NCBI RefSeq assembly: GCF_001424425.1
Contig: NZ_LMPT01000021.1
Coordinates: 64,532 to 128,531, forward strand
Source of the DNA: Acidovorax sp. Leaf191
GTDB taxonomy: Bacteria; Pseudomonadota; Gammaproteobacteria; Burkholderiales; Burkholderiaceae_C
Length of the DNA: 64,000 bases
Direction: 5' to 3'
Positions 2,875 to 56,518 of the stretch are shown in pieces; the first letter of the stretch is position 1, and each line of letters begins with the position of its first letter. Under the pieces are notes generated by a model that did not search any database, had not been told where the DNA came from, and saw only the letters and a program-made list of their open reading frames with translations. The position numbers and the translations under genes were made by a program.

Positions 2875-3945
2875 TCAACGCTCGATGGTCTTGTTCCAGC
2901 GCGTGTTCCAGGCGGGGCGGTTCGCGTTCACGCTGTCCCAGTCCAGCGTCACGGCGTTCTTCATCCACTGGCTGATCTGTGCCACCTGCGCCGCGCCCTC
3001 GCCCACGGCCGGTGCCTTGGGGTTGGTGGGGATCTGCGCGCCGAACTGCAGCACGTTGGCCTGCGCCAGGGGGCTCAGCAGAAACTCGGCCAGCTTTTGC
3101 GCCAGCTCGGGCTCGCTGTTCTTGGCGATCACGCACTGGCCGGTCATGAGCACCACCGAGCCCTCCTTGGGCTGCGCGTACTCCACCGGGATGCCCTTGG
3201 CCTTGAGCGCGGCCACGGCCGTGGGCGTGAGCGGGAACATCGCGGCTTCACCTGTCTGCACCATCTCGGAGATCTTGGCGGAGCTCGGGATGTACTCGAG
3301 CACGTTGGGGCCGATGGTCTTGGCCCAGTTGTTGAAGCCTGGCTCCACGTTCTTGTCGTTGCCGCCCTGGATGCGGTTGAACATCAAAAAGCCGTGCAGC
3401 CCGAACGACGACGACGGCATGGACTGGAACACCACCTTGCCCTTGTACTTGGGGTCCGCAAAGTCCATCCACGAGGTCGGCGCAGCCCAGCCCTTCTCGG
3501 TGAACATCTTGGTGTTGTAGGCGATGCCGGTCATGCCCAGGCTCACGCCGCTGGCCAGGTCGTCCTTGAAGCGGGCGGCCGGGTAGATGTCGTTCAGGTG
3601 CGGGTTGGGGCGCTGCTTCTCGCACAGGCCCATGCCCATGGCGCGCACCATGATGCCGTCATCGAGGAACATCACGTGCATCTGTGGCCGGTCCTTGTTG
3701 GCCTGCGCCTTGGCCAGGATGTCCGACGACGTGCCTGGCACCACCACGACCTTCACCCCATGGAGCTTCTCGAACGCCGGGAACACGTACTGCGTGTACG
3801 CCTTCTCCATGGTGCCGCCGTTCATGCCGATGTACAGCGTCTTGGTTTGTGCGGTGGCGGTACCGGCGGCCGCCAGGGCGATGGCAGCCGCCGCAGCCAG
3901 CAGGCCACGGCGCGGGGAGACGTTCGTGCGGAAAGCGAAGTTCAT
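2875..3945 (-). CDS. ABC transporter substrate-binding protein, polyamine/PotD-like family 1
   Basis: 356 residues. N-terminal signal peptide (about 1-33, cleavage near TATAQT); an SPRRGLL stretch precedes the hydrophobic core, so Tat export is possible but the motif is imperfect. The mature protein reads as a two-lobed extracellular solute-binding protein (LYIGMNGGTMEKAYTQYVFP, later GTSSDILAKAQANKDRP), as in iron/polyamine-type binding proteins. It is the last gene of the leftward uptake/dehydrogenase operon, 43 bases after the FAD subunit, and supplies the capture function for the two permeases and the ATPase. The substrate is not evident; a nitrogen-containing compound oxidised by the adjacent dehydrogenase is the natural guess. 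Confidence 0.85.
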   Translation of the reverse strand: MNFAFRTNVSPRRGLLAAAAAIALAAAGTATAQTKTLYIGMNGGTMEKAYTQYVFPAFEKLHGVKVVVVPGTSSDILAKAQANKDRPQMHVMFLDDGIMVRAMGMGLCEKQRPNPHLNDIYPAARFKDDLASGVSLGMTGIAYNTKMFTEKGWAAPTSWMDFADPKYKGKVVFQSMPSSSFGLHGFLMFNRIQGGNDKNVEPGFNNWAKTIGPNVLEYIPSSAKISEMVQTGEAAMFPLTPTAVAALKAKGIPVEYAQPKEGSVVLMTGQCVIAKNSEPELAQKLAEFLLSPLAQANVLQFGAQIPTNPKAPAVGEGAAQVAQISQWMKNAVTLDWDSVNANRPAWNTRWNKTIER

Positions 3946-3988
3946 GGTGATTGCCTTTCGGTGGGTCAGGGGGTGAAGGATCGGCGGC

Positions 3989-5164
3989 TCAATGGGCCGG
4001 CACTGTGGTTATCGGGGTGGCGTTATCGACAGGCGTCGGTGGTTCGTCGAATCGCGCCAGAGAAAACGCGTCGATCGGTGTGCTGGTGTGCCCGTCGCGC
4101 GCCAGTTCGGCCAGCACTTCGCCCACGGCAGGGCCGATCTGAAAACCCGCGCCCGCAAAGCCAAAGCCGTGGATCAGGCCGGGCGTGGTGCGGCTCTTGC
4201 ACAGCACGGGCTGGCGGTCGGGCAGGTAGCCTTCGGTGCCGCTCCAGGTGCGGATGAAGTGCGCGTGCTTCAGCGCAGGCAGCAGCTCGACCGCCTGCAC
4301 GGTGAGCGACGCAATGGCACTGCGCTCCGAGCGCGCGCGGTCGCCGTCGAGCCAGAAGCCCGACCCGCCGCCCAGCACCAGGTTGCCGCGCGCCACCTGG
4401 CGGCAGTAGATGCCACCGCCTTCCACGCCCAGGCTCCATTGCATGAAGTAGGGCAGGGGCTCGGTGACCATCATCGCGGGGTGGCCGGAGCGCAGCGGCA
4501 CCGGCTCGCCGAACTGCTCGGCCATGGCACCGGCCCAGGCGCCCGCGCAGTTGAGCACCACCGGCGCCTGCACCTGCAACGATGGGCCCGAATGCAGCGT
4601 GAACAACTGCCGGCCATCGTGTTCGATGTGTGTGAGCGGCGATCGCTCGAAGATCTGCGCACCCGCGCGCTGTGCGGCCAGCGCGAACGCGGGCGACACC
4701 AGGCGCGGGTTGGCCTGCCCGTCGTCCACGCACAGCGACCCGCCCACCGCCTTGCCGCCCAGCCACGGGCACTGTGCCCGCAGGCGCTCGCCGCTGATCA
4801 GCTCGATGCCCAGATCGAAGTCACGGCTCAGGTCGGCGTAGTGCTCCAGTGCGGCCATGTCCGCGTCGCTGCGCGCGATCTTGAAGTGCCCGGTGCGGGC
4901 GTACTCGCCATCGGTTCCGATGAGCGCGGGCAAGCGTGCCCAGATCTCGTGCGCGCGCTGCGCCAGCGGCAACTGGCTCAACGGGCGCCCCTGGCGGCGC
5001 ACGCCGCCGTAGTTCACGCCGCTCGAGCGCGAGCCGCACAGGTCGCGCTCCAGCAGCACCACGTCCACGCCCTGGCGGCGCAGGGCCAGCGCGGCCGATG
5101 CACCCACGATGCCGCCGCCCACGATGGCGACATCGGTCTTGATGGTTCGAGGCGTGCTGCTCAT
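3989..5164 (-). CDS. FAD-dependent oxidoreductase, DadA/opine-oxidase beta type
   Basis: 391 residues. The start at 5164 overlaps the stop of the preceding gene as ATGA. Dinucleotide-binding motif VGGGIVGASAALALRRQG (15-32), then the DAO fold to the C-terminal HGFGFAGAGFQIGPAVGE segment that contacts FAD. Proteins of this size form the catalytic beta subunit of heteromeric dehydrogenases (opine oxidase OoxB, hydrogen cyanide synthase HcnC, D-hydroxyproline and proline dehydrogenases) in which a BFD-type FAD subunit and a small [2Fe-2S] subunit complete the complex. Both partners are encoded immediately upstream. It probably oxidises a C-N bond of an imported amino acid, opine or amine derivative; the exact substrate is not visible. 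Confidence 0.88.
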   Translation of the reverse strand: MSSTPRTIKTDVAIVGGGIVGASAALALRRQGVDVVLLERDLCGSRSSGVNYGGVRRQGRPLSQLPLAQRAHEIWARLPALIGTDGEYARTGHFKIARSDADMAALEHYADLSRDFDLGIELISGERLRAQCPWLGGKAVGGSLCVDDGQANPRLVSPAFALAAQRAGAQIFERSPLTHIEHDGRQLFTLHSGPSLQVQAPVVLNCAGAWAGAMAEQFGEPVPLRSGHPAMMVTEPLPYFMQWSLGVEGGGIYCRQVARGNLVLGGGSGFWLDGDRARSERSAIASLTVQAVELLPALKHAHFIRTWSGTEGYLPDRQPVLCKSRTTPGLIHGFGFAGAGFQIGPAVGEVLAELARDGHTSTPIDAFSLARFDEPPTPVDNATPITTVPAH

Positions 5165-7795: not shown

Positions 7796-8692
7796 TCATC
7801 CCAAAGACTTCTTGTAACGGCCTTCAACCAGTCGGTTGTAGCTCAGCATCACCACCAGATTCGCCACCAGCAAGGTCAGCGCAATGGCGGCGCCCAGCGG
7901 CCAGTTCAGCTCGTGCAGGTACTCGTCGTACACCACCGTGGCCACCATCTTCAGCCGCCGCCCGCCCAGCAGTCCGGGAATGGCGAACGAGCTGGCTGCC
8001 AGGCCGAACACGATCAGGCTGCCCGACAAGATGCCCGGCAGCACCTGCGGCAGCACGATGCGCCGCAAGGTGGTGAAGGGCGAGGCCTGCAGCGACAGCG
8101 CGGCGTTCTCCACGCCCGGGTCCAGCTTCTGCAGCGATGTCCACACGGGGATCACCATGAACGGCAGCATCACGTGCACCAGCGCCACCACCACGGCGAT
8201 CTCGGTGTAGAGCATCTTCACCGGGCCGATGCCGACCAGGCCGAAGGCCGCGTTCACCAGGCCTTCGGGGCCGAGCAGCATGCTCCAGCCAAAGGCCCGC
8301 ACCACCACCGACACCAGCAAGGGCGCCAGCACCACCAGCAGCAGGATGGAGCGCCACGGGTTGCGCATGCGGCTGAGCACGTACGCCTCGGGTGCGCCAA
8401 TCGCTACGCAGATCAGCGTGACCAGCCCGGCGATCCAGAACGTGCGCCAGAAGATCGCGTGGTAGTACGAATCGGCAAACACATGGCGGTAGTGCTCCAG
8501 CGTGAACTCGCCCGCCTTCACCCCTGTGGCCGGGTCGAACGCGTTGAACGACAGCACCGCCGTGAGCGCCAGCGGCACCAGCAACAGCACGGTGAACAGC
8601 AGCAGCGCCGGGCCGGACAGCCACCAGGGCATGGCCTTCTTGCCCAGCAGCGGGTGGGGCGCTGCGGACAGGGTCGATGGGGCGGCTGTCAT
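7796..8692 (-). CDS. ABC transporter permease, PotB-like
   Basis: 298 residues. After a polar N-terminus, a first transmembrane helix (about 24-48) and five more, with the ATPase-contact loop ENAALSLQASPFTTLRRIVL. This is the N-terminal-type permease of spermidine/putrescine-family importers. The start ATG overlaps the stop of the ATPase gene (ATGA). Confidence 0.88.
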   Translation of the reverse strand: MTAAPSTLSAAPHPLLGKKAMPWWLSGPALLLFTVLLLVPLALTAVLSFNAFDPATGVKAGEFTLEHYRHVFADSYYHAIFWRTFWIAGLVTLICVAIGAPEAYVLSRMRNPWRSILLLVVLAPLLVSVVVRAFGWSMLLGPEGLVNAAFGLVGIGPVKMLYTEIAVVVALVHVMLPFMVIPVWTSLQKLDPGVENAALSLQASPFTTLRRIVLPQVLPGILSGSLIVFGLAASSFAIPGLLGGRRLKMVATVVYDEYLHELNWPLGAAIALTLLVANLVVMLSYNRLVEGRYKKSLG

Positions 8693-9783
8693 GGCGTGGC
8701 CTCGGCCTCGGCGCCAGCCACCGCGGATTCATCGGTGGGCAGCAGGCGCATGCAGTGGTCGGGCCAGTCCAGGCCCGTGCGGTCGCCTTCGTCCAGCGCG
8801 TTGCGGCCGTCGTTGGGCACCAGCACCATCAGGTCGCCCAGGGGGGTGCCCACGCGGTACAGCCACTGGCTGCCCAGAAAGAAGCGTTCGCGCACTTCGC
8901 CGTCGATGCGGCCCTGCACTGCGGGCACCAACTGCAGCTTTTCAGGCCGCACGCTCAGCAGCACGGCCGCGCCGGGGCGAAACTGTGCGCCGTCCACCCG
9001 CACCTCGATGGGCCCGGCGCCCACGTGGGTGTGGGTGCTGTTGGCCGATGTGACCTTGCCAGGCACCAGGTTGGCCTTGCCCACGAAGGTGGAGATGAAG
9101 CGGGTGCGCGGGTGCTCGTACACGCGGTGCGGGTGGTCGATCTGCGTGGCGCGGCCGGCCTCCATCACCACCACGCGGTCGCTGATGGACATGGCTTCGC
9201 TCTGGTCGTGCGTGACCATCACCGTGGTGGTGCCCACCTTGCGCTGGATCTGGCGCAGCTCGAACTGCATCTCCTCGCGCAGCTTGGCGTCCAGGTTGGA
9301 CAGCGGCTCGTCCAGCAGCAGCACGGGCGGCTCGATGACCAGTGCGCGCGCCAGGGCCACGCGCTGGCGCTGGCCGCCCGACAGTTCGCGCGGGTAGCGC
9401 GTGGCGTGCGGCTCCAGGTGCACGAGGCCCAGGGCCTGTGCCACCCGGTCCTTGCGCTCGGCCTTGGGCACCTTGCGCATCTCCAGGCCAAAGCTCACGT
9501 TGTCGGCCACCGTCATGTGCGGAAAAAGCGCATAGCTCTGGAACACGATGCCCAGCCCGCGCGTGTTGGCCTTGGCGTGGGTGATGTCGCGCCCGTCCAG
9601 CTCGATGCGGCCGCTGCTCACCGCCTCGAAGCCCGCCACCATCTGCAAGGTGGTGGTCTTGCCGCAGCCCGAGGGGCCGAGCAGGGAGACGAATTCGCCT
9701 TTTTCCACCGTGAGGTTCATGGACTGCACCGCGCAGGTGCTGCCGTAGAACTTGGTCACATCAGTGAGTTGGAGGAAGGACAT
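8689..9783 (-). CDS. ABC transporter ATP-binding protein, PotA-like
   Basis: 364 residues. The start at 9783 was chosen because the ABC domain begins there; the frame upstream is unsupported. Walker A GPSGCGKTT (36-44), signature LSGGQ (133-137), Walker B LLLDEP (154-159), and a C-terminal TOBE-like regulatory domain (about 240-364). Energises import by the two permeases. First gene of the leftward operon, opposite the IclR gene. Confidence 0.9.
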   Translation of the reverse strand: MSFLQLTDVTKFYGSTCAVQSMNLTVEKGEFVSLLGPSGCGKTTTLQMVAGFEAVSSGRIELDGRDITHAKANTRGLGIVFQSYALFPHMTVADNVSFGLEMRKVPKAERKDRVAQALGLVHLEPHATRYPRELSGGQRQRVALARALVIEPPVLLLDEPLSNLDAKLREEMQFELRQIQRKVGTTTVMVTHDQSEAMSISDRVVVMEAGRATQIDHPHRVYEHPRTRFISTFVGKANLVPGKVTSANSTHTHVGAGPIEVRVDGAQFRPGAAVLLSVRPEKLQLVPAVQGRIDGEVRERFFLGSQWLYRVGTPLGDLMVLVPNDGRNALDEGDRTGLDWPDHCMRLLPTDESAVAGAEAEATP

Positions 9784-9987
9784 GGGGGCCTTTCTTCGGG
9801 TTCCGGTTTCTTGCCAGGCGCGTGCTCTGACGGCGCGGCGCATGGATGTCTTTGTGCCGGGCGGCCTTTGCCAAACAAGGTGCCTTGGCACCGCTGCACC
9901 GCGGCGGTGCATGGGATCGTTCAGGATGGGGGTGCCCGGCGTTTTCAGTTCACTCTATTGCAACAACCGAACCAGATCGCACCGGGT

Positions 9988-14044: not shown

Positions 14045-14059
14045 CGGATGCTTGAAGAT

Positions 14060-14106
14060 GGCCGCTGCGCCTGGCCTGCATTGCAGGACGGCGCAGCGGC
14101 CTTTTT
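14060..14106 (+). terminator. Rho-independent terminator
   Basis: Twelve-bp perfect stem ggccgctgcgcc (14060-14071) / ggcgcagcggcc (14090-14101) with an 18-base loop that itself contains a ctgca/tgcag stem, followed by TTTTT. Ends the small membrane-protein transcript and lies just past the stop of the convergent sigma factor gene. Confidence 0.85.
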
Positions 14107-14116
14107 GTGTCTGGTA

Positions 14117-14914
14117 CTACTGCAGCGCGGCGTGGAGATCGCACTCGATATTGCGCACGCCCAGCGGCAGCACGCACAGGGCCACGCCGTCGAGCGTGAG
14201 CACCAGGCCCAGCTGGCCGCCCACCTGCACCACCCCGCAGGACGTGGTTGGCATGCGGGTGGTGGCTGGACGGGTGATGGCCGAAGACGCGCTGATGGGG
14301 GGCTGGCGCACCATGGCCCACAGGGTTTGCGGGTCGCGCCATTGCAGGGACTGCAGGTAGACGCGCAGGACCGCAGGGTCGTGGCCATCGCCCTCGCTGT
14401 CGCCCCGCGCCGGGGTGTGCTCGCCACGGCCTGCTGCCTGCCGCAGCTTGTGCAGTGCCCGGCGGATGTGCTGCCGGCTGGCGGCTTCGGTGCGGCCGCT
14501 CGCCGATGCGATCTCCGCATGGCTGGCCTCAAACACCTCGTACAGCAGCACGGCAGCGCCCTCGGTGGGGCTCAGGCAGGCCGCCAGCAGGCGCAAGGCG
14601 TGGGCCACTTCTTCGGCCAGCGCCGCATCGCTCTCGGCCGACGGCGCCGCGGCGGGCGCCTGTGGCGTGGCTGCCTCGGCCAGCCACTGCTGCATCCAAT
14701 CGCGTCTGCGCAGCCGGTCGATGGCCAGGTGGCGCACCACGGTCAGCAGCCAGGCCTGGGCGGTATTGAGCGCGCGCGTATCGGCCTCCAGCGCGCGGAT
14801 GTAGGCGTCCTGCACCGCATCCTCCGCCTCTGCCGGGCCCAGCAGCCGCGTGGCGGCCCGCACCAGGCGGCTGCGGTCGGTGTCGATCAGGGCCATCCGG
14901 TATTCGTCGTGCAT
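14117..14914 (-). CDS. ECF-type RNA polymerase sigma factor with C-terminal extension
   Basis: 265 residues from the ATG at 14914. Region 2: SRLVRAATRLLGPAEAEDAVQDAYIRALE, with the conserved AEDAVQDAY core; then DRLRRRDWM. Region 4: LSPTEGAAVLLYEVFEASHAEIASASGRTEAASRQHIRRALHKLRQ. About 85 residues follow, ending in a hydrophobic segment (VGGQLGLVLTLDGVALCVLP) that is unusual for a minimal ECF factor and resembles the SnoaL-like tails of some ECF groups. No anti-sigma gene is adjacent; the tail may take over that role (inference). Divergent from the ClpP-like gene. Confidence 0.82.
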   Translation of the reverse strand: MHDEYRMALIDTDRSRLVRAATRLLGPAEAEDAVQDAYIRALEADTRALNTAQAWLLTVVRHLAIDRLRRRDWMQQWLAEAATPQAPAAAPSAESDAALAEEVAHALRLLAACLSPTEGAAVLLYEVFEASHAEIASASGRTEAASRQHIRRALHKLRQAAGRGEHTPARGDSEGDGHDPAVLRVYLQSLQWRDPQTLWAMVRQPPISASSAITRPATTRMPTTSCGVVQVGGQLGLVLTLDGVALCVLPLGVRNIECDLHAALQ

Positions 14915-15004
14915 CGGCAAATCTTGCCACAGGCCTGCTGGGCGCGCGGATGTCACGAAACCGGCGCGCCGTTCGTCAAGGCAGTTCCACTACAAGGATT
15001 CACC

Positions 15005-15601
15005 GTGAACAGCCCAGACACCCCCGCACCGTCCAGCGCCACCGAGCCGCGCACCTCCTACCTGGAGGAGAAAGCCTTCAAGGCCCGCACCCTGCTGATC
15101 TTCGGCACCGTGACCGATGTGATCGCGGCCGATGTGACGCGCCGCCTGATCGCGCTGGACGCCGAGAGCGCCGACCCCATCGACGTGCTGGTCAGCTCGC
15201 CAGGCGGGCACCTGGAGTCGGGCGATGCCATCCACGACATCGTGCGCTTCATCGGTGCCCCGGTGAACATGATCGGCACCGGCTGGGTGGGCAGTGCCGC
15301 CACGCACCTGTACCTGTCCGTGCCCCGCGAGCGGCGCTACTGCCTGCCCAACACGCGCTTTCTGATCCACCAGCCCAGTGGCGGTGCGGGCGGGCCGGCC
15401 AGCGACATCGCCATCCAGGCCCGCGAGATCGTCAAGGCCCGGGAGCGCATCGCACGCACCATCGCGCGCGAAACCGGCAAGCCGCTGGCCGTGGTGCTGG
15501 AGGACATCGAGCGCGACCGCTGGTTGTCGGCCGAGGAGGCGGTCGAGTACGGCCTGGTTTCGAGGGTCATCGAGCGCAAGATTGAACTCAGGGCCACTTA
15601 A
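15005..15601 (+). CDS. ClpP-like ATP-dependent serine protease subunit
   Basis: 198 residues from the GTG at 15005; AAGGA precedes it by 6 bases. The ClpP catalytic triad is intact: Ser97 (GWVGSAATHLYL), His122 (NTRFLIHQPSGG) and Asp171 (ERDRWLSAEEAVEYGLV). Core strands VLVSSPGGHLESGDAI match the ClpP handle region. It lacks an adjacent ClpX/ClpA gene and differs from housekeeping ClpP around the serine, so it is probably an accessory paralogue forming its own or a mixed barrel. Ninety bases separate it from the divergent sigma factor. Confidence 0.87.
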   Translation: MNSPDTPAPSSATEPRTSYLEEKAFKARTLLIFGTVTDVIAADVTRRLIALDAESADPIDVLVSSPGGHLESGDAIHDIVRFIGAPVNMIGTGWVGSAATHLYLSVPRERRYCLPNTRFLIHQPSGGAGGPASDIAIQAREIVKARERIARTIARETGKPLAVVLEDIERDRWLSAEEAVEYGLVSRVIERKIELRAT

Positions 15602-16029
15602 AGTTGCGCGTGTTGGTCAAAAAGGTGGCGCGCTACACGGGCTCTAAGGTCGTCAGCACCACTATTGCATCGCGGTGTTGGGGGGGCTATTGTTGAGACC
15701 CTTCGCCTTCAATGCTGAGTTAGCAGCGGAGCATCATTCATATTCCTTTTGGTCAATTCCGCTTTCAGTATTGGTAAGCGTCCAGCGGCAACGCACAACA
15801 CCGTGCCTCGCGCCCGCGACGGTTGGCTCGACATTACCGCGATGATTGGCGATTCGATAAATAACAAAATTTCATTTTCTGTTTGATAAAGGCATATCCG
15901 ATTTAAAGGCTGTGCGAGCACGAGCTCCCATGATAATTTAATGCACAGTGCGTGGATTTGGCGGGCAGATCCACGCCCCCAGGCTCAGCACGAGCCAATG
16001 GTGGTATTAAAATTCGTGAGGAATTCAAG
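15602..16029. other. Left part of the AT-rich island; no intact gene
   Basis: Base composition shifts from GC-rich to AT-rich at about 15.7 kb. A run of seven G lies at 15680-15686. Between stops at 15716-15718 and 15884-15886 there is a 55-codon open frame with no good start, reading ...FSIGKRPAATHNTVPRARDG then WLDITAMIGDSINN..., which may be the tail of a lost gene. The segment 15886-15950 is AT-rich and could hold the promoter of the next operon. A GTG at 15952 opens the downstream frame but looks non-coding. Confidence 0.5.
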
Positions 16030-16857
16030 TTGGTAATTCAGAAAAAGACTGTTGAGCAGGTCGCGCAGAAAGCAAGTATCTGTCTAAAAAATAGAGAGAA
16101 TGTACCGACCGCTCCGCTTTGGCATCTGGGGAAGGCTCAAGTCTTCGGTGTCACAGAGGGTTTTGATTTGGTGCAAAGTACAATTGACTATCTTGCCTGT
16201 AAAGCCAAAATAAACTCCAGTTTTACAGATGATGAAAAAGAATTTTTAGTCAATATTTATGAGGCTTTTTGGTGGGGTGGGAAGTATCTAGGTTTTTCTG
16301 AGGCGGCGCTGCTCGCCAATCATTATGTTCATGGCGGCGGGCATGAGGTTATACTGAATCCATTTGTCTATCGGTATTCTGTTATTGTTCAAGATGCAAT
16401 TGTTGCTTTGAAGAAATATATTTCAAATAGACAAAATACCAATAAATTTTTTGCGATTGCTAAAACGTCTGACGTGGAATTTCAACGTTCCAAATTTGCG
16501 GATCCTCTCCGCTCGCAAAATCGGCATAAACCCACTCAAGGAAACATTGTCACAAATGATGGTACTTTGAAGGCTGAAGAAATCAATGTTCGCTTGAAAT
16601 ATACTGACAACCGTTTTTACTTGATGGCGGCGACTTCGTATCAAAGGAATTTATTCTTCACTCGTTGGAGTGTCAGCAGTCTGTATGACTTTGTTGATTA
16701 TGCCGATGAGCAGGATGATAAAAATATCACCGAAATACCTCTGAATGGTCGGAAATTGCGATTGCCAGATGGGTTGTCTAACCATATGGAAAAGATAGGG
16801 ATTGCAAAGAAATTTTGGTACCGTGTTGAGTGGCATGAGCATTGGAGGGTGGGGTAA
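16030..16857 (+). CDS. Unrecognised AT-rich protein, first gene of island operon
   Basis: 275 residues if started at the TTG at 16030, which has GAGGA at 16017-16021 (8 bases upstream); the frame opens at a GTG at 15952, but those extra 26 codons look like non-coding DNA. Codon use is AT-rich, unlike all neighbours. The N-terminal half is helical (VEQVAQKASICLKN; SSFTDDEKEFLVNIYEAFWW) and includes EAALLANHYVHGGGHEVILN; the C-terminal half is mostly beta (INVRLKYTDNRFYLMAATSY; RWSVSSLYDFVDYADE). No signal peptide or membrane helix. The stop overlaps the next gene (TAATG). An orphan secreted-effector or toxin role is an inference from composition, layout and partner; no family recognised. Confidence 0.7.
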   Translation: MVIQKKTVEQVAQKASICLKNRENVPTAPLWHLGKAQVFGVTEGFDLVQSTIDYLACKAKINSSFTDDEKEFLVNIYEAFWWGGKYLGFSEAALLANHYVHGGGHEVILNPFVYRYSVIVQDAIVALKKYISNRQNTNKFFAIAKTSDVEFQRSKFADPLRSQNRHKPTQGNIVTNDGTLKAEEINVRLKYTDNRFYLMAATSYQRNLFFTRWSVSSLYDFVDYADEQDDKNITEIPLNGRKLRLPDGLSNHMEKIGIAKKFWYRVEWHEHWRVG

Positions 16858-17312
16858 TGCGTTTAATGTTGAAATTATTATTTTTTTTACCTTTGTTGGT
16901 GATCTTGTTGGTAAGTTTCGTTGCTTGGAAATCAAGGTCTGGGCATGAATGCTTCGTGTTTGCGGATTCTTATGTCGAAATTGCTCAGTTAAATATCGAT
17001 GGCCGCAAGCACTATCTATATTCGATGGTCTCAGGATTTCAGGACAAGTCGAGGGGCGTGGCAATTTCAAATGACGTTATTCCTGAAATAATGTGCGATT
17101 ACTCAAGCACTGGTCGTCGAATCAATTTGACAGATATCGAGGAAGGCCAGGCCATAAAAAAACTGGTCATCAGGCGAGTGGCCCCCTCTGACTTTCGGCT
17201 CGACGTCATTTATGGAGGACCGGCGCGAGCCAGTCAATTTCCTGGGATGTCTGGTGTCATCGTTGAGATAGATGGCAAGCCAATCCATCGAATATCACAG
17301 CAGCCGGGGTAA
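16857..17312 (+). CDS. Unrecognised single-helix membrane protein, second gene of island operon
   Basis: 151 residues; the ATG at 16857 overlaps the previous stop and follows GGAGGGTGGGG. Residues 1-26 form one transmembrane helix or uncleaved signal (LMLKLLFFLPLLVILLVSFV); the remaining 125 residues are a probably periplasmic beta-rich domain (CFVFADSYVEIAQLNIDGRK, later GGPARASQFPGMSGVIVEID). AT-rich like its partner. Membrane-anchored periplasmic proteins in this position are often immunity factors for an effector encoded just upstream; that is a hypothesis. Confidence 0.7.
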   Translation: MRLMLKLLFFLPLLVILLVSFVAWKSRSGHECFVFADSYVEIAQLNIDGRKHYLYSMVSGFQDKSRGVAISNDVIPEIMCDYSSTGRRINLTDIEEGQAIKKLVIRRVAPSDFRLDVIYGGPARASQFPGMSGVIVEIDGKPIHRISQQPG

Positions 17313-17320
17313 ACACCCGT

Positions 17321-18229
17321 CTATTGCGCCCGCCCCGCGCATTCCCCCACCACCCAGTCCCTGAATGCCTTCACCAGCGGTGTCTGCGCCCGCGCCTCCG
17401 GGTAGACCAGGTAGTACGCATCGGTGCTGGTCAGCACCTGGTCCGACAGTTCCACCAGGCTGCCGGCTGCCAGCTCCTGCGCGATCAGAAACCGCGGCAG
17501 CAGCGCGGCGCCCAGGTGGGAGACGGCGGCCTGGGCGATCATGGAGAAATGCTCGGACTGCGGCCCGCGCAGCGCCAGCGCGGCCGGGGCGCCCACCAGG
17601 TCGAACCATTCGGCCCACTGCGTGGGGCGGGTGCTTTGCTGCAGCAGCACCACGCGGGTCAGATCCTGCGGGGTGCGGATGGCATGGCGGTCGCGGTAGG
17701 CGGGGCTGCAAACGGGCACGGTTTCTTCGTGCATCAGGTATTCGCACACGGCGCCGGCCCAGTGCGGGGCACCGAAGTGGATGGCCGCGTCGAATGGCGT
17801 GCCCGCAAAGTCGAAGGGCTCGGTGCGGGCCGAGAAGTTGACCATGGCCTCGGGGTGCAGCGCCATGAAGCCCGCCAGCCGCGGGATGAGCCAGCGGGTG
17901 GCCAGGGTGGGCAGCACCGCCAGGTTGAGCAGGCCGTCGGTGCTGGCAAAAGCCATGGCCTTCTGGGTGCTGGCCGACAGTTGCTGCAGCACGGCCTGCA
18001 CGTCGGCGGCGTAGACGCGGCCGGCGTCGGTCAGCACCACGCGCTGGCGCACGCGGTGAAAGAGGGCGGTGCCCAGTTGCTCCTCCAGCTGCCGGATCTG
18101 GCGCGACACGGCGCTTTGTGTGAGGTGCAGTTCCTCGGCAGCGCGCGACACGCTCTGGTGGCGGGCCGCGGCTTCGAAGGCCAGCAGATCGGCGGTGGAG
18201 GGCAGGAAGGAGCGGCGCAGCATGGTCAT
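17321..18229 (-). CDS. LysR-family transcriptional regulator, GcvA-like
   Basis: 302 residues. N-terminal winged helix-turn-helix (HQSVSRAAEELHLTQSAVSR, about 24-43) and a periplasmic-binding-like effector domain (from about 95). ATG at 18229; a second ATG two codons later is possible. The GcvA-like features are the LAVLPTLATRWLIPRL and SEHFSMIAQAAV segments. Divergent from the ALDH gene and probably its activator. Confidence 0.9.
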   Translation of the reverse strand: MTMLRRSFLPSTADLLAFEAAARHQSVSRAAEELHLTQSAVSRQIRQLEEQLGTALFHRVRQRVVLTDAGRVYAADVQAVLQQLSASTQKAMAFASTDGLLNLAVLPTLATRWLIPRLAGFMALHPEAMVNFSARTEPFDFAGTPFDAAIHFGAPHWAGAVCEYLMHEETVPVCSPAYRDRHAIRTPQDLTRVVLLQQSTRPTQWAEWFDLVGAPAALALRGPQSEHFSMIAQAAVSHLGAALLPRFLIAQELAAGSLVELSDQVLTSTDAYYLVYPEARAQTPLVKAFRDWVVGECAGRAQ

Positions 18230-50664: not shown

Positions 50665-52137
50665 ATGTCGAAGTTTGATGGAACCGTGCTGCGCTCGTGG
50701 GCGCTCGCTTCGGTGTTGGTGGGTGTGGCTGGTACGGCAGGTTTGCTGCCGCTGGCGGCCCTGGCGCAGCCCGCGGCGGCTGTGCGTGGCCTGCCCGATT
50801 TCACCGACCTGGTGGATCAGGTGGGGCCTTCCGTGGTCAACATCCGTACCGTGGAGAAGGCGTCCAGCCGTTCTGGTGCCAATGGCATGGACGAGGAAAT
50901 GCTGGAGTTCTTCAAGCGTTTCGGCGTGCCCATCCCGAATGCGCCGCGGCAGCAGCGCCCTCAGCGGCCGCAGCAGGACGAAGAGGCGCAGCCGCGCGGC
51001 GTGGGTTCGGGCTTCATCCTGACGGCCGACGGCTTCGTGATGACGAATGCCCACGTGGTCGAGGGGGCCGACGAGGTCATCGTGACGCTGACCGACAAGC
51101 GTGAATTCAAGGCCAAGATCATCGGTGCCGACAAGCGCACCGACGTCGCGGTGGTCAAGATAGAAGCCACGGGCCTGCCGGCCGTCAAGGTGGGCGATCT
51201 GAGCCGCCTTCGCGTGGGCGAATGGGTGATGGCCATCGGCTCCCCCTTCGGCCTGGAGAACACGGTCACGGCGGGCATCGTGAGTGCCAAGCAGCGCGAT
51301 ACGGGCGACTACCTGCCCTTCATCCAGACGGATGTGGCGATCAACCCCGGCAATTCCGGCGGGCCGCTGATCAACATGCGCGGCGAGGTGGTCGGCATCA
51401 ACAGCCAGATCTATTCGCGCTCGGGTGGGTTCATGGGCATCTCGTTTGCCATTCCGATGGACGAGGCGATCCGCGTGAGCGAGCAGTTGCGCGCGTCGGG
51501 CCGTGTGACCCGGGGCCGCATCGGTGTGCAGATCGGTCAGGTCACGCGCGATGTCGCAGAGTCCATCGGCCTGGGCAAAGCGCAGGGCGCACTGGTCACC
51601 GGCGTCGAGTCGGGCTCCCCTGCCGACAAGGCCGGCGTGGAGGCGGGCGACATCATCACGCGCTTTGACGGCAAGCCGATTGAAAAGGTCGCCGACCTGC
51701 CGCGCCTGGTGGGCAACACCAAGCCCGGCAGCAAGAGCACGGTGACGGTGTTCCGCCGGGGCGCCTCGCGGGACCTGGGCATCACCATCGCCGAGATCGA
51801 GCCGGACAAGCCGGTGGCCAAGGCGCCGGAGCGCGAAGAAAAACCCAAGGCTTCTGCAGCCGCCCAGCAGGTGGGCCTGGCGGTCACGGAGTTGACCGAC
51901 GCGCAGAAGAAAGAGCTCAAGATCAAGGGCGGCGTGGTGGTGGCCGCTGCCACCGATGGGGCCGCGCGAGCGGGCCTGCGCGAGGGTGATGTGATCCTGT
52001 CGATTGCCAACGCCGAAGTGGCGGGCGTGAAGGAGTTCGAGGCGGTGCTGTCGAAGGCCGACAAGACCAAGGCGATCAACGTGCTGTACCGCCGCGGCGA
52101 ATGGGCGCAGTACGCGCTGATCCGCCCCGCCCGCTGA
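50665..52137 (+). CDS. mucD: Periplasmic serine protease, DegP/MucD type
   Basis: 490 residues from the ATG at 50665 (AAAGG upstream). Signal peptide 1-35 (LAALAQP). Catalytic triad His130 (MTNAHVVEG), Asp160 (DKRTDVAVVKI), Ser231 (NPGNSGGPL). Two PDZ domains (about 285-375 and 395-485). Degrades misfolded envelope proteins and damps the sigma-E signal. Last gene of the operon. Confidence 0.95.
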   Translation: MSKFDGTVLRSWALASVLVGVAGTAGLLPLAALAQPAAAVRGLPDFTDLVDQVGPSVVNIRTVEKASSRSGANGMDEEMLEFFKRFGVPIPNAPRQQRPQRPQQDEEAQPRGVGSGFILTADGFVMTNAHVVEGADEVIVTLTDKREFKAKIIGADKRTDVAVVKIEATGLPAVKVGDLSRLRVGEWVMAIGSPFGLENTVTAGIVSAKQRDTGDYLPFIQTDVAINPGNSGGPLINMRGEVVGINSQIYSRSGGFMGISFAIPMDEAIRVSEQLRASGRVTRGRIGVQIGQVTRDVAESIGLGKAQGALVTGVESGSPADKAGVEAGDIITRFDGKPIEKVADLPRLVGNTKPGSKSTVTVFRRGASRDLGITIAEIEPDKPVAKAPEREEKPKASAAAQQVGLAVTELTDAQKKELKIKGGVVVAAATDGAARAGLREGDVILSIANAEVAGVKEFEAVLSKADKTKAINVLYRRGEWAQYALIRPAR

Positions 52138-52374
52138 CCTGGGGCCTGGCGCGCTCGAAGGGGCTGTGACAGCGTCATGACCCCTTCGCCGCCAAGCCTT
52201 TTGCGGGGAGGTGCACTATTTTTTGGGCCGCGGAAAAAAGTCTTTGCACTCACTTGAAGTTAGCTTTCGCTTACATGCGTGCCGGCCTATCAATCGTTTT
52301 CGATAGAATACGGGCACCTGTTCAAACCTTAACTGTATATTGAATGGCGTCGGGTTCACGATGCGGGATGCCAG
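52138..52374. promoter_or_regulatory. mucD 3' hairpin and AT-rich promoter region
   Basis: cgaagggg (52156-52163) / ccccttcg (52181-52188), with an inner tgac/gtca stem, forms a long hairpin after mucD; no U-run follows. Further on, TAGAAT at 52304-52309 is a probable -10 element. Confidence 0.45.
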
Positions 52375-52389
52375 TGTGCGATGCACAGC

Positions 52390-52457
52390 TGATCCACAGC
52401 TCACCCACAAGTTGTCCAGCGTTGTTGTTGTGCTAATTGTGAATAAGCTGTGTATAA
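52390..52457. promoter_or_regulatory. Cluster of DnaA-box-like sites
   Basis: Two perfect TTATNCACA boxes on the minus strand, tgtgaataa (52438-52446) and tgtgtataa (52449-52457), start 11 bases apart. On the plus strand TGATCCACA (52390-52398) is one mismatch and TCACCCACA (52401-52409) two mismatches from consensus. A palindrome tgtgcgatgcaca lies next to it at 52375-52387. Confidence 0.55.
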
Positions 52458-52527
52458 AATTCCTGTTGCACCGTGACAACTCCCCTCAGATGCAGTCGGG
52501 CGGGCTTTTTTCGGCGGGCTTTTTGCC

Positions 52528-52606
52528 TACAATGAAGTTCCAACTATCGCAGTTGCCAATGATTGTTGGTTCAGGGCGCGTCGCCATTCGACGCGCCCTT
52601 TTTTCT
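52528..52606 (+). ncRNA. Candidate small RNA or leader RNA upstream of lepA
   Basis: TACAAT at 52528-52533 is a good -10 (the -35 is poor). From about 52540 the RNA could fold as caact/agttg (52541-52555), ccaa/ttgg (52556-52569) and a strong terminator hairpin. Total about 65 nt, ending at the T-run. No reading frame. Either an independent small RNA or the attenuated leader of lepA. Confidence 0.4.
52574..52604 (+). terminator. Strong rho-independent terminator upstream of lepA
   Basis: Perfect 10-bp stem gggcgcgtcg / cgacgcgccc, loop CCATT, then TTTTTT. Only 41 bases before the lepA start. Confidence 0.85.
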
Positions 52607-52645
52607 TGTGTGCGCCGTTTTAATTCAATCACTTGACGTTTTTCG

Positions 52646-54456
<1,811 letters not shown>

Positions 54457-54457
<1 letters not shown>

Positions 54458-55434
54458 TGCTTCAGTTCATGCAGATCCTGACGTCGGCCGTGCTGGCCAT
54501 TTTTGCGGGCTACATCGGCGCTTGGTACTTCGGCGCCATCGAGGGCAATTTCGCGCTGCTGCTGTTCCTGGCGACCGTGGTCACGGGCGCCTATTGGCTC
54601 GCGGAGCGCTTTTACTTCCTGCCCCAGCGGCGCCGCGCCGCGCAGGCGGTGGAGGATGCGGCCGTCCAGCGCCGGGCCGAGCTGGACCGCATGGGCATCG
54701 AGAAGGTCGACGTGGACGTCCAGGAGGCCAAGGGCCGCCTGCTCATGCAGCCCTGGTGGCTCGACTGGACGGCGGGCCTGTTTCCGGTCATCGTGGTGGT
54801 GTTCCTGCTGCGCTCCTTCCTGTTCGAGCCCTTCAAGATCCCGTCGGGGTCGATGATTCCCACGCTGCTGGTGGGCGACCTGATCCTGGTGAACAAGTTC
54901 ACCTACGGCGTGCGCCTGCCGGTGATCCACACCAAGATCATCGAAGGCAGCAAGCCCCAGCGCGGCGACGTGCTTGTGTTCCGGTACCCGCCCCAGCCGA
55001 CGCTCGACTACATCAAGCGTGTGGTGGGCGTGCCGGGCGACGAGGTGGCCTACCTGAACAAGCGTCTCACGATCAATGGAAAGGCCGTGGACACGAAGGC
55101 GCTGCCCGACTTTTTTGAAGAAGACTCGATGCGCTACTTCAAGCAGTTCGAGGAGCAGCTTGGCGCGCAGCCGCACCGCCTGTTGAACAACCCGGATGTG
55201 CCTGCGTTCGTGCAGGGCGCTTCCAACTTTGCGAACCGCCAGAACTGCCGCTACAGTGTCGAAGGGGTGGTCTGCAAGGTCCCCGAGGGCCATTACTTCA
55301 TGATGGGTGACAACCGCGACAACTCCCTGGATTCACGCTACTGGGGATTCGTGCCCGAGGGCAACATCGTGGGCCGGGCCTTCTTTGTGTGGATGAATTT
55401 CGGTAATCTCAAGCGCATCGGTTCGTTCAACTGA
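54457..55434 (+). CDS. lepB: Signal peptidase I
   Basis: 325 residues. Helices at about 2-24, 31-49 and 107-124. Catalytic Ser132 (PSGSMIPTLLVGD) and Lys187 (DYIKRVVGVPGDEV), plus GDNRDNSLDSRYWG. Cleaves Sec signal peptides at the outer face of the inner membrane. Its stop overlaps a short upstream frame of the next gene. Confidence 0.96.
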
Positions 55435-55469
55435 TGAACGGTCTGCTCATACAACGGAGAGGGGAAAAA

Positions 55470-55835
55470 ATGCATCGTAGTAATCTCATTCGCCGGTCTC
55501 GCCAGCGGGGTCTGTCGTTCATCGGTGTAGTGTTCATCGGGGTGCTCGCCGTGGCTGCTTTTGCGATCGGCGGGCAGTCCATACCGATTTTTCTGGAGTA
55601 CCAAGCCATTGGCAAAGCTGCTGCCAAGGCGGCGAAAGAAGGCAACACGGTCGCTGAGATTCGTGCGATCTTTGATCGTGCGGGAGCTATCGACAACATC
55701 AGCTCCGTGCAAGGCAAGGACCTTGAAATAGCGAAAAGTGGTGACAAGACCATAGTCTCCTTCAAATACTCCCGCGAAATCGCCCTGGCAGGCCCCGCGT
55801 TCCTTGTCTACCGCTTCGAAGGACAGACCAAGTAG
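55470..55835 (+). CDS. DUF4845 membrane protein
   Basis: 121 residues from the ATG at 55470, chosen because GGAGAGGGG precedes it; an ATG at 55434 overlapping lepB is possible. Basic N-terminus then [20 protein letters not shown], a prepilin-like hydrophobic start, and a small soluble domain. Always found between lepB and rnc in betaproteobacteria; function unknown. Stop overlaps the rnc GTG. Confidence 0.88.
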
Positions 55836-56518
55836 TGCATCCAGGTCTCCAATCGCTGCAGGCCCGCCTGCAGCATGTTTTCTCCAATCCTGCGCTGCTC
55901 CAGCGCGCCACGACGCACCGCAGCTTCTCGGCCGACCACAACGAGCGCCTGGAGTTTCTCGGTGATTCCGTCCTGAACCTGGCCGTCGCCAGCCTGCTGT
56001 ACCAGCGGCTGGCCTACCTGCCCGAAGGTGATCTCTCCCGCGTCCGCGCCAATCTGGTCAAGCAGGACACGCTGCACCAGCTCGCGCTGCACCTGAGGGT
56101 GTCCGAGGTGCTGCGCCTGGGCGAGGGCGAATCCAAATCGGGCGGCCAGCAGCGGCCCTCCATCCTGGCGGATGCTCTGGAGGCGCTCATTGGTGCGGTG
56201 TACCTCGATGCGGGGTATTCCGCGGCCGAGGCACTGGTGCACCGGCTGTTCCAGGGCGTGGAGATCAATCCCCAGATGCAGGCGGCCTCCAAGGACGCCA
56301 AAACCGCGTTGCAGGAGTGGCTGCAGGGCCGCAAAATGAAGCTGCCGCAGTACAAGGTGGTGGCGACGGTGGGTGCCGCCCACCGCCAGACCTTTGACGT
56401 CGAGTGCGATATCCCCGAACTGTCCCTCACCGAACGCGGCATCGGCGGCTCGCGCCGCGCGGGCGAGCAGGCGGCTGCGGCGGCCATGCTGGCTACATTG
56501 AAAGCAAAGAATCTATGA
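55835..56518 (+). CDS. rnc: Ribonuclease III
   Basis: 227 residues from a GTG that overlaps the previous stop (TAGTG). Signature [11 protein letters not shown] (37-47) with Glu40 and Asp44; the second metal site is in [14 protein letters not shown]. dsRNA-binding domain about 153-225. Processes rRNA precursors. Confidence 0.96.

Follow-up and report, generated by a model that had tools for sequence, protein, structure and literature searches.

T6EC1 and T6IC1, a DUF3289 effector and its DUF943 immunity protein, are encoded in a T6SS operon (PMC11148199, Mol Syst Biol 2024). In Aeromonas jandaei, a DUF3289 effector was demonstrated by competition assays to belong to an antibacterial T6SS effector-immunity pair; it is called orphan in contrast to three effectors encoded next to secreted core components (PMC12135965, PLoS Biol 2025). 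Colicin M and its orthologues are described as lipid II hydrolases with the essential motif DxYD(x5)HR (PMC8469651). Tandem, non-identical immunity copies are reported from the esaG strings of the T7SS (PMC9484751).

Here, we describe a two-gene locus of Acidovorax sp. Leaf191 (genome of 5.87 Mb in 24 contigs), located in a 64,000-nucleotide stretch of DNA which was analysed as a whole and is called the window below. From its sequence and that of its relatives, the locus probably represents a horizontally acquired orphan effector-immunity pair with T6SS-type export, periplasmic action and a membrane-anchored immunity protein. Like T6EC1/T6IC1, it would combine a toxin, in our case a predicted one, with a partner that carries one N-terminal helix and a periplasmic domain (157 aa in T6IC1). 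T6EC1 acts in the periplasm and is T6SS-operon encoded, and one copy of the present pair, that of genome G827, adjoins a T6SS cluster. Unlike T6EC1, which is described as a specialised PAAR protein (PMC11148199), gene 1 exhibits neither a PAAR domain nor a match to PF11692, and DUF943 is not matched by gene 2. The orphan location is shared with the A. jandaei pair, while the antibacterial function is in our case predicted from sequence. In contrast, that pair belongs to another Pfam family, and its 95-aa immunity protein is described as carrying a signal peptide along with three membrane helices (PMC12135965).

Composition and boundaries of the insertion

An abrupt change of composition between about 15.7 and 17.3 kb, pointed out in the first-pass annotation, is borne out by the GC profile of the window. 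Gene 1 and gene 2 together have a GC content of 42.3% as computed on the window sequence, whereas the 1,492 overlapping windows of 1,280 bp elsewhere show a minimum of 57.4% (0.574; mean 0.672, sd 0.033). The 500-bp profile falls from 0.70 over 0.54 to 0.39 and 0.40 and returns over 0.56 to 0.71. At third codon positions, the GC content (GC3) is 0.40 in gene 1 and 0.48 in gene 2 versus 0.87-0.90 in three neighbouring genes. Milder GC dips (0.56-0.59) occur in the window at 52001-53000 and 55001-56000.

The stretch is an insertion relative to the congener G187, in which the same two flanking genes are adjacent, separated by 53 bp and without any insert. The gene order of G187 agrees with that of the window on both sides, where it comprises a GGDEF gene, a dehydrogenase gene and part of the next gene. 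In a blastn comparison, the alignment of the two genomes ends at window position 15595 and restarts at 17332. GC profile and alignment together define an AT-rich insert of approximately 1.7 kb at about 15596..17331, to which no strand is assigned; relative to the empty site, the boundaries 15602..17312 given at first are therefore correct to about 20 bases. Among the matches listed, 22 insert-free genomes have strong matches to both flanks. Since these flanks lie far apart or on different contigs in 21 of them, G187 is the only informative empty site. A search with 3.3 kb around the pair against 47 genomes of the genus gave, among the matches listed, a full-length match for G000 (the host) and G414 only, and gene 2 is likewise present in 2 of these 47 genomes.

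On its left side the insert is flanked by a ClpP-like protease gene (15005..15601, plus strand; the match corresponds to residues 334-514 of the ORF 14048-15601, and the start codon was picked by inspection). On its right side follows a LysR-family regulator gene, assigned by a profile match (17321..18229, minus strand), the last 11 bases of which lie beyond the stretch aligned with G187. Both genes are counted as flanks outside the insert. The leader of the insert (15602..16029, plus strand, 428 bp) has an intermediate composition of 51% GC. Neither a third gene nor the remains of a mobile element were recognised there, and the loci of homologues with which the leader was compared showed no remnant in it either. 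No tRNA was found at the insert and no repeat is common to its two ends; repeat, promoter and terminator scans of the insert gave nothing helpful.

Two overlapping genes and their products

Gene 1 (16030..16857, plus strand), delimited by its ORF and its homologues, encodes a predicted soluble effector (toxin) of 275 aa. Its TTG start codon is preceded by GAGGA (16018..16022, plus strand), which, read from the sequence, is the likely ribosome-binding site. A longer ORF with a GTG start at 15952 is less likely because the homologues begin at approximately the same place as the TTG start; those with a comparable start have 264-278 aa. Neither a signal peptide nor a strongly hydrophobic stretch like that of gene 2 is recognisable, in good agreement with the soluble protein of about 275 residues proposed in the first-pass annotation. 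In an alignment of nine sequences, the invariant residues include H98, D122, S154, R165, D193, R195, Y219, D220 and D247, which are possibly catalytic. Gene 1 shows no recognisable toxin fold and no recognisable catalytic motif, and its AlphaFold2 model, calculated from a two-sequence input, is unusable (mean pLDDT 39.9).

Gene 2 (16857..17312, plus strand), likewise supported by ORF and homologues, encodes a predicted immunity protein of 151 aa with an N-terminal membrane helix and a predicted periplasmic domain. Its start codon ATG shares one base with the stop codon TAA of gene 1, which ends at 16857; the overlap TAATG had been noted before and is confirmed on the sequence. The single N-terminal membrane helix claimed earlier is found again in the hydrophobicity profile, where residues 4-22 (codons at 16866..16922, plus strand) form the one strong stretch, and in the AlphaFold2 model. 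The latter, also from a two-sequence input, has a mean pLDDT of 40.8 and is unusable apart from this helix (residues 2-27, confident up to about residue 24).

Most homologues of gene 2 carry a different kind of anchor. A lipobox was found by pattern in nine of 12 sequences and, by eye, as LMAC in L017, while the two Acidovorax sequences have the hydrophobic helix instead. Outside Acidovorax, gene 2 thus looks like a lipoprotein gene. Two cysteines, C32 and C80, are invariant in the 11 aligned sequences, as expected of an oxidised periplasmic domain. Anchor type and invariant cysteines together suggest a domain located in the periplasm, so that the toxin should act in the periplasm as well. The two proteins diverge at different rates: between Acidovorax and the gammaproteobacteria, gene 1 retains 43-49% identity and gene 2 only 22-31%.

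Searches for known families

That neither protein could be matched to a known family, as stated in the first-pass annotation, holds for searches in Pfam, NCBIfam, PHROGs and PADLOC and for profile searches against PDB sequences. Gene 1 has no match in the first four collections and gene 2 has weak matches only. Nine gene 1 and 11 gene 2 sequences, each compared with Pfam at E up to 10, revealed no credible family, where the HMMER filters discard most matches above E of about 0.1 even at this setting. Among PDB sequences, no credible match was found for either protein. The pair would thus be a known kind of system represented by a new family, so far unannotated; a description of this family under another name may already be in print.

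Several weak matches were inspected and set aside. Mss4 was matched by two of nine gene 1 members (best E 0.0088) and DUF4969 by three of 11 gene 2 members at a best E of 0.0003; where coordinates are shown, which is the case for one member, the DUF4969 match covers residues 3-51 and stays under its cut-off. Against PDB sequences, the profiles A1 and A3 mainly retrieved leucine-rich-repeat chains, the best at E 0.0007 (chain 4psj 'OR464', over 27 residues, none of its stretches being sufficient by itself), and A4 gave two matches with E above 1; we regard all of them as chance. With single sequences as queries, gene 1 (P0001) retrieved DAZ-like chains at E 0.22, and gene 2 (P0002) nothing.

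Some features of the locus would also fit a toxin/antitoxin or anti-phage (abortive infection) module that operates inside one cell, namely the two overlapping genes, the foreign composition and a weak ThaI/REase-like match in gene 2 (E 0.003 and 0.006). The ThaI match is below the Pfam cut-off, starts inside the membrane helix and occurs in two of 11 members. A partner predicted to sit in the envelope could not neutralise a cytoplasmic toxin, and since it is envelope-anchored, it would be unsuited to a cytoplasmic abortive-infection pair. PADLOC has no match for gene 1 and a single one for gene 2, which is not credible (E 0.0064, residues 17-90). Relatives are absent from the phages searched (gene 1) and from the viral contigs searched (both genes). 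The defence alternative raised in the first-pass annotation thus finds no support, and we consider such a module most improbable.

The general plan shared with T6EC1/T6IC1 and its 157-aa, one-helix partner (PMC11148199) raises the question whether gene 1 might be a T6SS effector of the DUF3289/colicin M type that degrades lipid II and has diverged beyond recognition by Pfam; gene 2 would then correspond to DUF943 or to a colicin M immunity protein. The short stretch YDF, present in all nine gene 1 sequences, also occurs in the colicin M sequence DKYDFNASTHR (PMC8469651), and it is the only thing that gene 1 and colicin M have in common. Unlike in colicin M, the motif DxYD(x5)HR is absent from gene 1: in nine out of nine sequences the first D and the HR are missing, while YD(F) is kept. 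No colicin M chain occurs among the PDB sequence matches. PF11692 (DUF3289) gave no match in the nine gene 1 members at E up to 10, where the HMMER filters apply, nor in the host genome, while an E. coli control was matched. DUF943 is not among the 11 families matched by the 11 gene 2 members at E up to 10. All in all, such an origin appears improbable. As a side result, ybfC of E. coli K-12, tried as a DUF3289 protein, proved not to be one, and DUF3289 is not listed for five annotated T6SS plasmid regions (four from other Enterobacterales and one from E. coli) in the PLSDB gene table, which is incomplete.

Distribution of homologues

The nearest relative is found in Acidovorax sp. Leaf78 (locus L002, genome G414), with 98% identity in gene 1; this strain was also the only one retrieved in a scan of genome contigs. 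Within the family, gene 1 occurs in one of 398 genomes, which is the host itself, and the same holds for 398 genomes of the phylum. In 260 genomes of its own order we found gene 1 itself and a weak match in G1422, which was rejected (E 0.003, with a stop inside). Six out of 369 genomes of the class gave a match at E up to 0.01: the host itself, the long homologues in G635, G639 and G694, a remnant in G491, and a chance match in G708, which has an E of 0.0094 and falls in an unrelated 422-aa ORF. Within the orders of G694, G639 and G635, gene 1 was detected in 2 of 5, 1 of 20 and 7 of 24 genomes, respectively. The genome draws from family, class, orders and phylum overlap one another. No relatives of either gene were found in plasmids. 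This patchy spread marks gene 1 as an accessory gene; a housekeeping role of its homologues, which would have spoken against the proposed function, is not what the distribution shows.

Pairing, decay and amplification

Carriers of the pair, including G414, amount to 13 genomes. In seven of them (G000, G414, G635, G694, G806, G827 and G841) both genes are intact and adjacent. At all seven intact loci, gene 1 is directly followed on its own strand by a homologue of gene 2, which overlaps it or lies within about 10 bases, and no intact gene 1 without a partner was seen among the 13 genomes. Together with the TAATG overlap, this describes an effector-type gene followed by a dedicated, apparently co-transcribed partner.

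In the remaining six carriers, gene 1 is broken or fragmentary. A broken gene 1 stands beside a full-length open partner in three genomes, being frameshifted in G842 and reduced to remnants in G843 and G491. In the other three, the partner is lost or not judgeable: G639 has a stop in gene 1 and a partner cut short near a contig end, and in G840 and G825 the gene 1 fragments lie close to contig ends. Broken copies are few in number, and because the genomes of most relatives are drafts split into many contigs, an assembly error could lie behind a single frameshift. At locus L034 of G806, one gene 1 is followed by four tandem partner copies which are 85-92% identical, the fourth being cut by the contig end. 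Effector-immunity pairs are expected to lose the toxin while the immunity gene stays, and also to multiply their immunity genes.

Several non-identical copies in a row are also known from the esaG strings, which differ in secretion system, toxin and phylum (PMC9484751). Within the L034 array (8094-9804), the residue after the lipobox cysteine is Gly in copies 1-2 and Asp in copies 3-4. An Asp at this position keeps lipoproteins at the inner membrane in E. coli, and the two kinds of copies may be sent to different membranes. In L006 of G639 (2290-2456), the partner is cut after about 13 residues by a sequence unlike the other partners, near the contig end; by eye, this is perhaps an insertion sequence. 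Two loci, L031 of G635 (3-857) and L035 of G842 (3790-4923), carry a second two-gene pair just upstream of a homoserine dehydrogenase gene, which in both cases adjoins the gene 1/gene 2 pair. In L031, the downstream gene of the second pair appears to encode an N-terminal membrane helix, and Pfam recognises ankyrin repeats in its product; the combination recalls certain T6SS immunity proteins.

These data also have to be compared with the idea that the two genes form an accessory pair without toxicity, such as a cytoplasmic enzyme whose partner is a lipoprotein of the envelope. The toxicity of gene 1 is so far a prediction, and its dN/dS values of 0.22 and 0.42 in two close pairs fit ordinary purifying selection. 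The four-copy partner array, the partner kept beside a broken gene 1 and the faster divergence of the partner are difficult to reconcile with such a role, as are the T6SS linkage in G827 and the presence in one of 398 genomes of the family. We therefore regard a non-toxic function as quite improbable.

Relation to type VI secretion

A link to a secretion machinery comes from G827, in which the pair has ABC-transporter genes on one side and a T6SS cluster on the other; it shares the strand of the cluster and stands directly upstream of tssA. The cluster has the order tssA-tssB-tssC-hcp-tssE-...-clpV; tssA, tssB, tssC, hcp, tssE, a ClpV-type ATPase and one ABC-transporter gene were assigned by Pfam and the rest by position and sequence. 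The gene 1 remnant of G825 stands beside ABC-transporter genes similar to those of G827. This T6SS linkage is seen at one of 13 carrier loci, several others of which reach contig ends within a few kb. The host itself possesses a T6SS, on another contig than the window, for which Pfam identified Hcp, TssK, TssL, TssM, TssC, TssE, TssF, TssG and a ClpV/TssH-type ATPase, and a separate search TssB. The first-pass annotation had suggested to look for VgrG, Rhs, PAAR or defence genes in the neighbourhood of homologues. VgrG, Rhs and PAAR genes were not recognised, but one homologue adjoins tssA. In the window itself, no VgrG, PAAR or Hcp gene was recognised by eye among the ORFs between 9 and 24 kb, three of the neighbours being profiled.

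Across genomes, carriage of the pair and of a T6SS are not associated. VipA/TssB was found in 5 of 12 carriers, compared with 10 of 39 genomes that lack the pair (Fisher P = 0.30), a count in which G491 is not part of the carrier set and the non-carriers all come from three gammaproteobacterial orders. Within these three orders, the numbers are 3 of 10 carriers and 10 of 39 non-carriers, again without association. Intact pairs occur in G635 (99% complete) and G841 (96%), both without VipA, and none of the five genomes from the order of G694 and G806 has VipA.

These observations would fit an effector-immunity pair exported without a T6SS, e.g., by tailocin-like or bacteriocin-type release, the linkage in G827 then being coincidental or secondary. 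Against this reading, no signal peptide, receptor-binding, translocation or lysis function is recognisable in gene 1, and its homologues with a comparable start have just 264-278 aa. The co-directional adjacency to tssA in G827 also speaks against this reading, which we consider unlikely. Because of the missing VipA association and the intact pairs in the VipA-less G635 and G841, T6SS delivery is the best but unproven route. The case for an effector-immunity function is firmer than that for the export machine.

Proposed function

The effector/immunity reading of the first-pass annotation gains support from the seven out of seven paired loci, the lipoprotein signals, the four-copy array, the three loci with a broken gene 1 and the pair adjoining a T6SS cluster, all of which are arguments from anatomy and evolution short of proof. 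Under this reading, the insert would be a two-gene cassette acquired by horizontal transfer. Gene 1 would encode a toxin made in the cytoplasm without a signal peptide, most likely a T6SS cargo effector, which is delivered into neighbouring Gram-negative cells and acts in the periplasm or at the periplasmic face of the inner membrane. The product of gene 2 would be anchored in the inner membrane, by its N-terminal helix in Acidovorax sp. Leaf191 and by a lipid in relatives, with its domain facing the periplasm, and would neutralise the toxin delivered by sister cells. As for the target, we infer toxicity and a periplasmic site of action; peptidoglycan or its lipid precursor would be the likeliest point of attack, a guess made because of the location of the partner and nothing else.

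A more far-reaching version would see in gene 1 the founder of a new toxin superfamily: neither its fold nor its target in the envelope would be found in any known T6SS effector or bacteriocin, and it would move between distant proteobacteria as a two-gene cassette together with a fast-evolving lipoprotein guard that in one case was multiplied to four copies. This is possible but rather doubtful at present.

Orphan effector-immunity pairs located far from T6SS genes escape searches that are based on neighbourhood. For the present pair, we know an insertion site as well as relatives in distant lineages, among them one copy linked to a T6SS and one array of several immunity genes, which makes it a good test case for the movement of such cassettes, their decay and the orphan immunity genes that are left behind. 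It may also be a source of a new antibacterial activity, and would gain in importance if structure or assay revealed a new fold or target.
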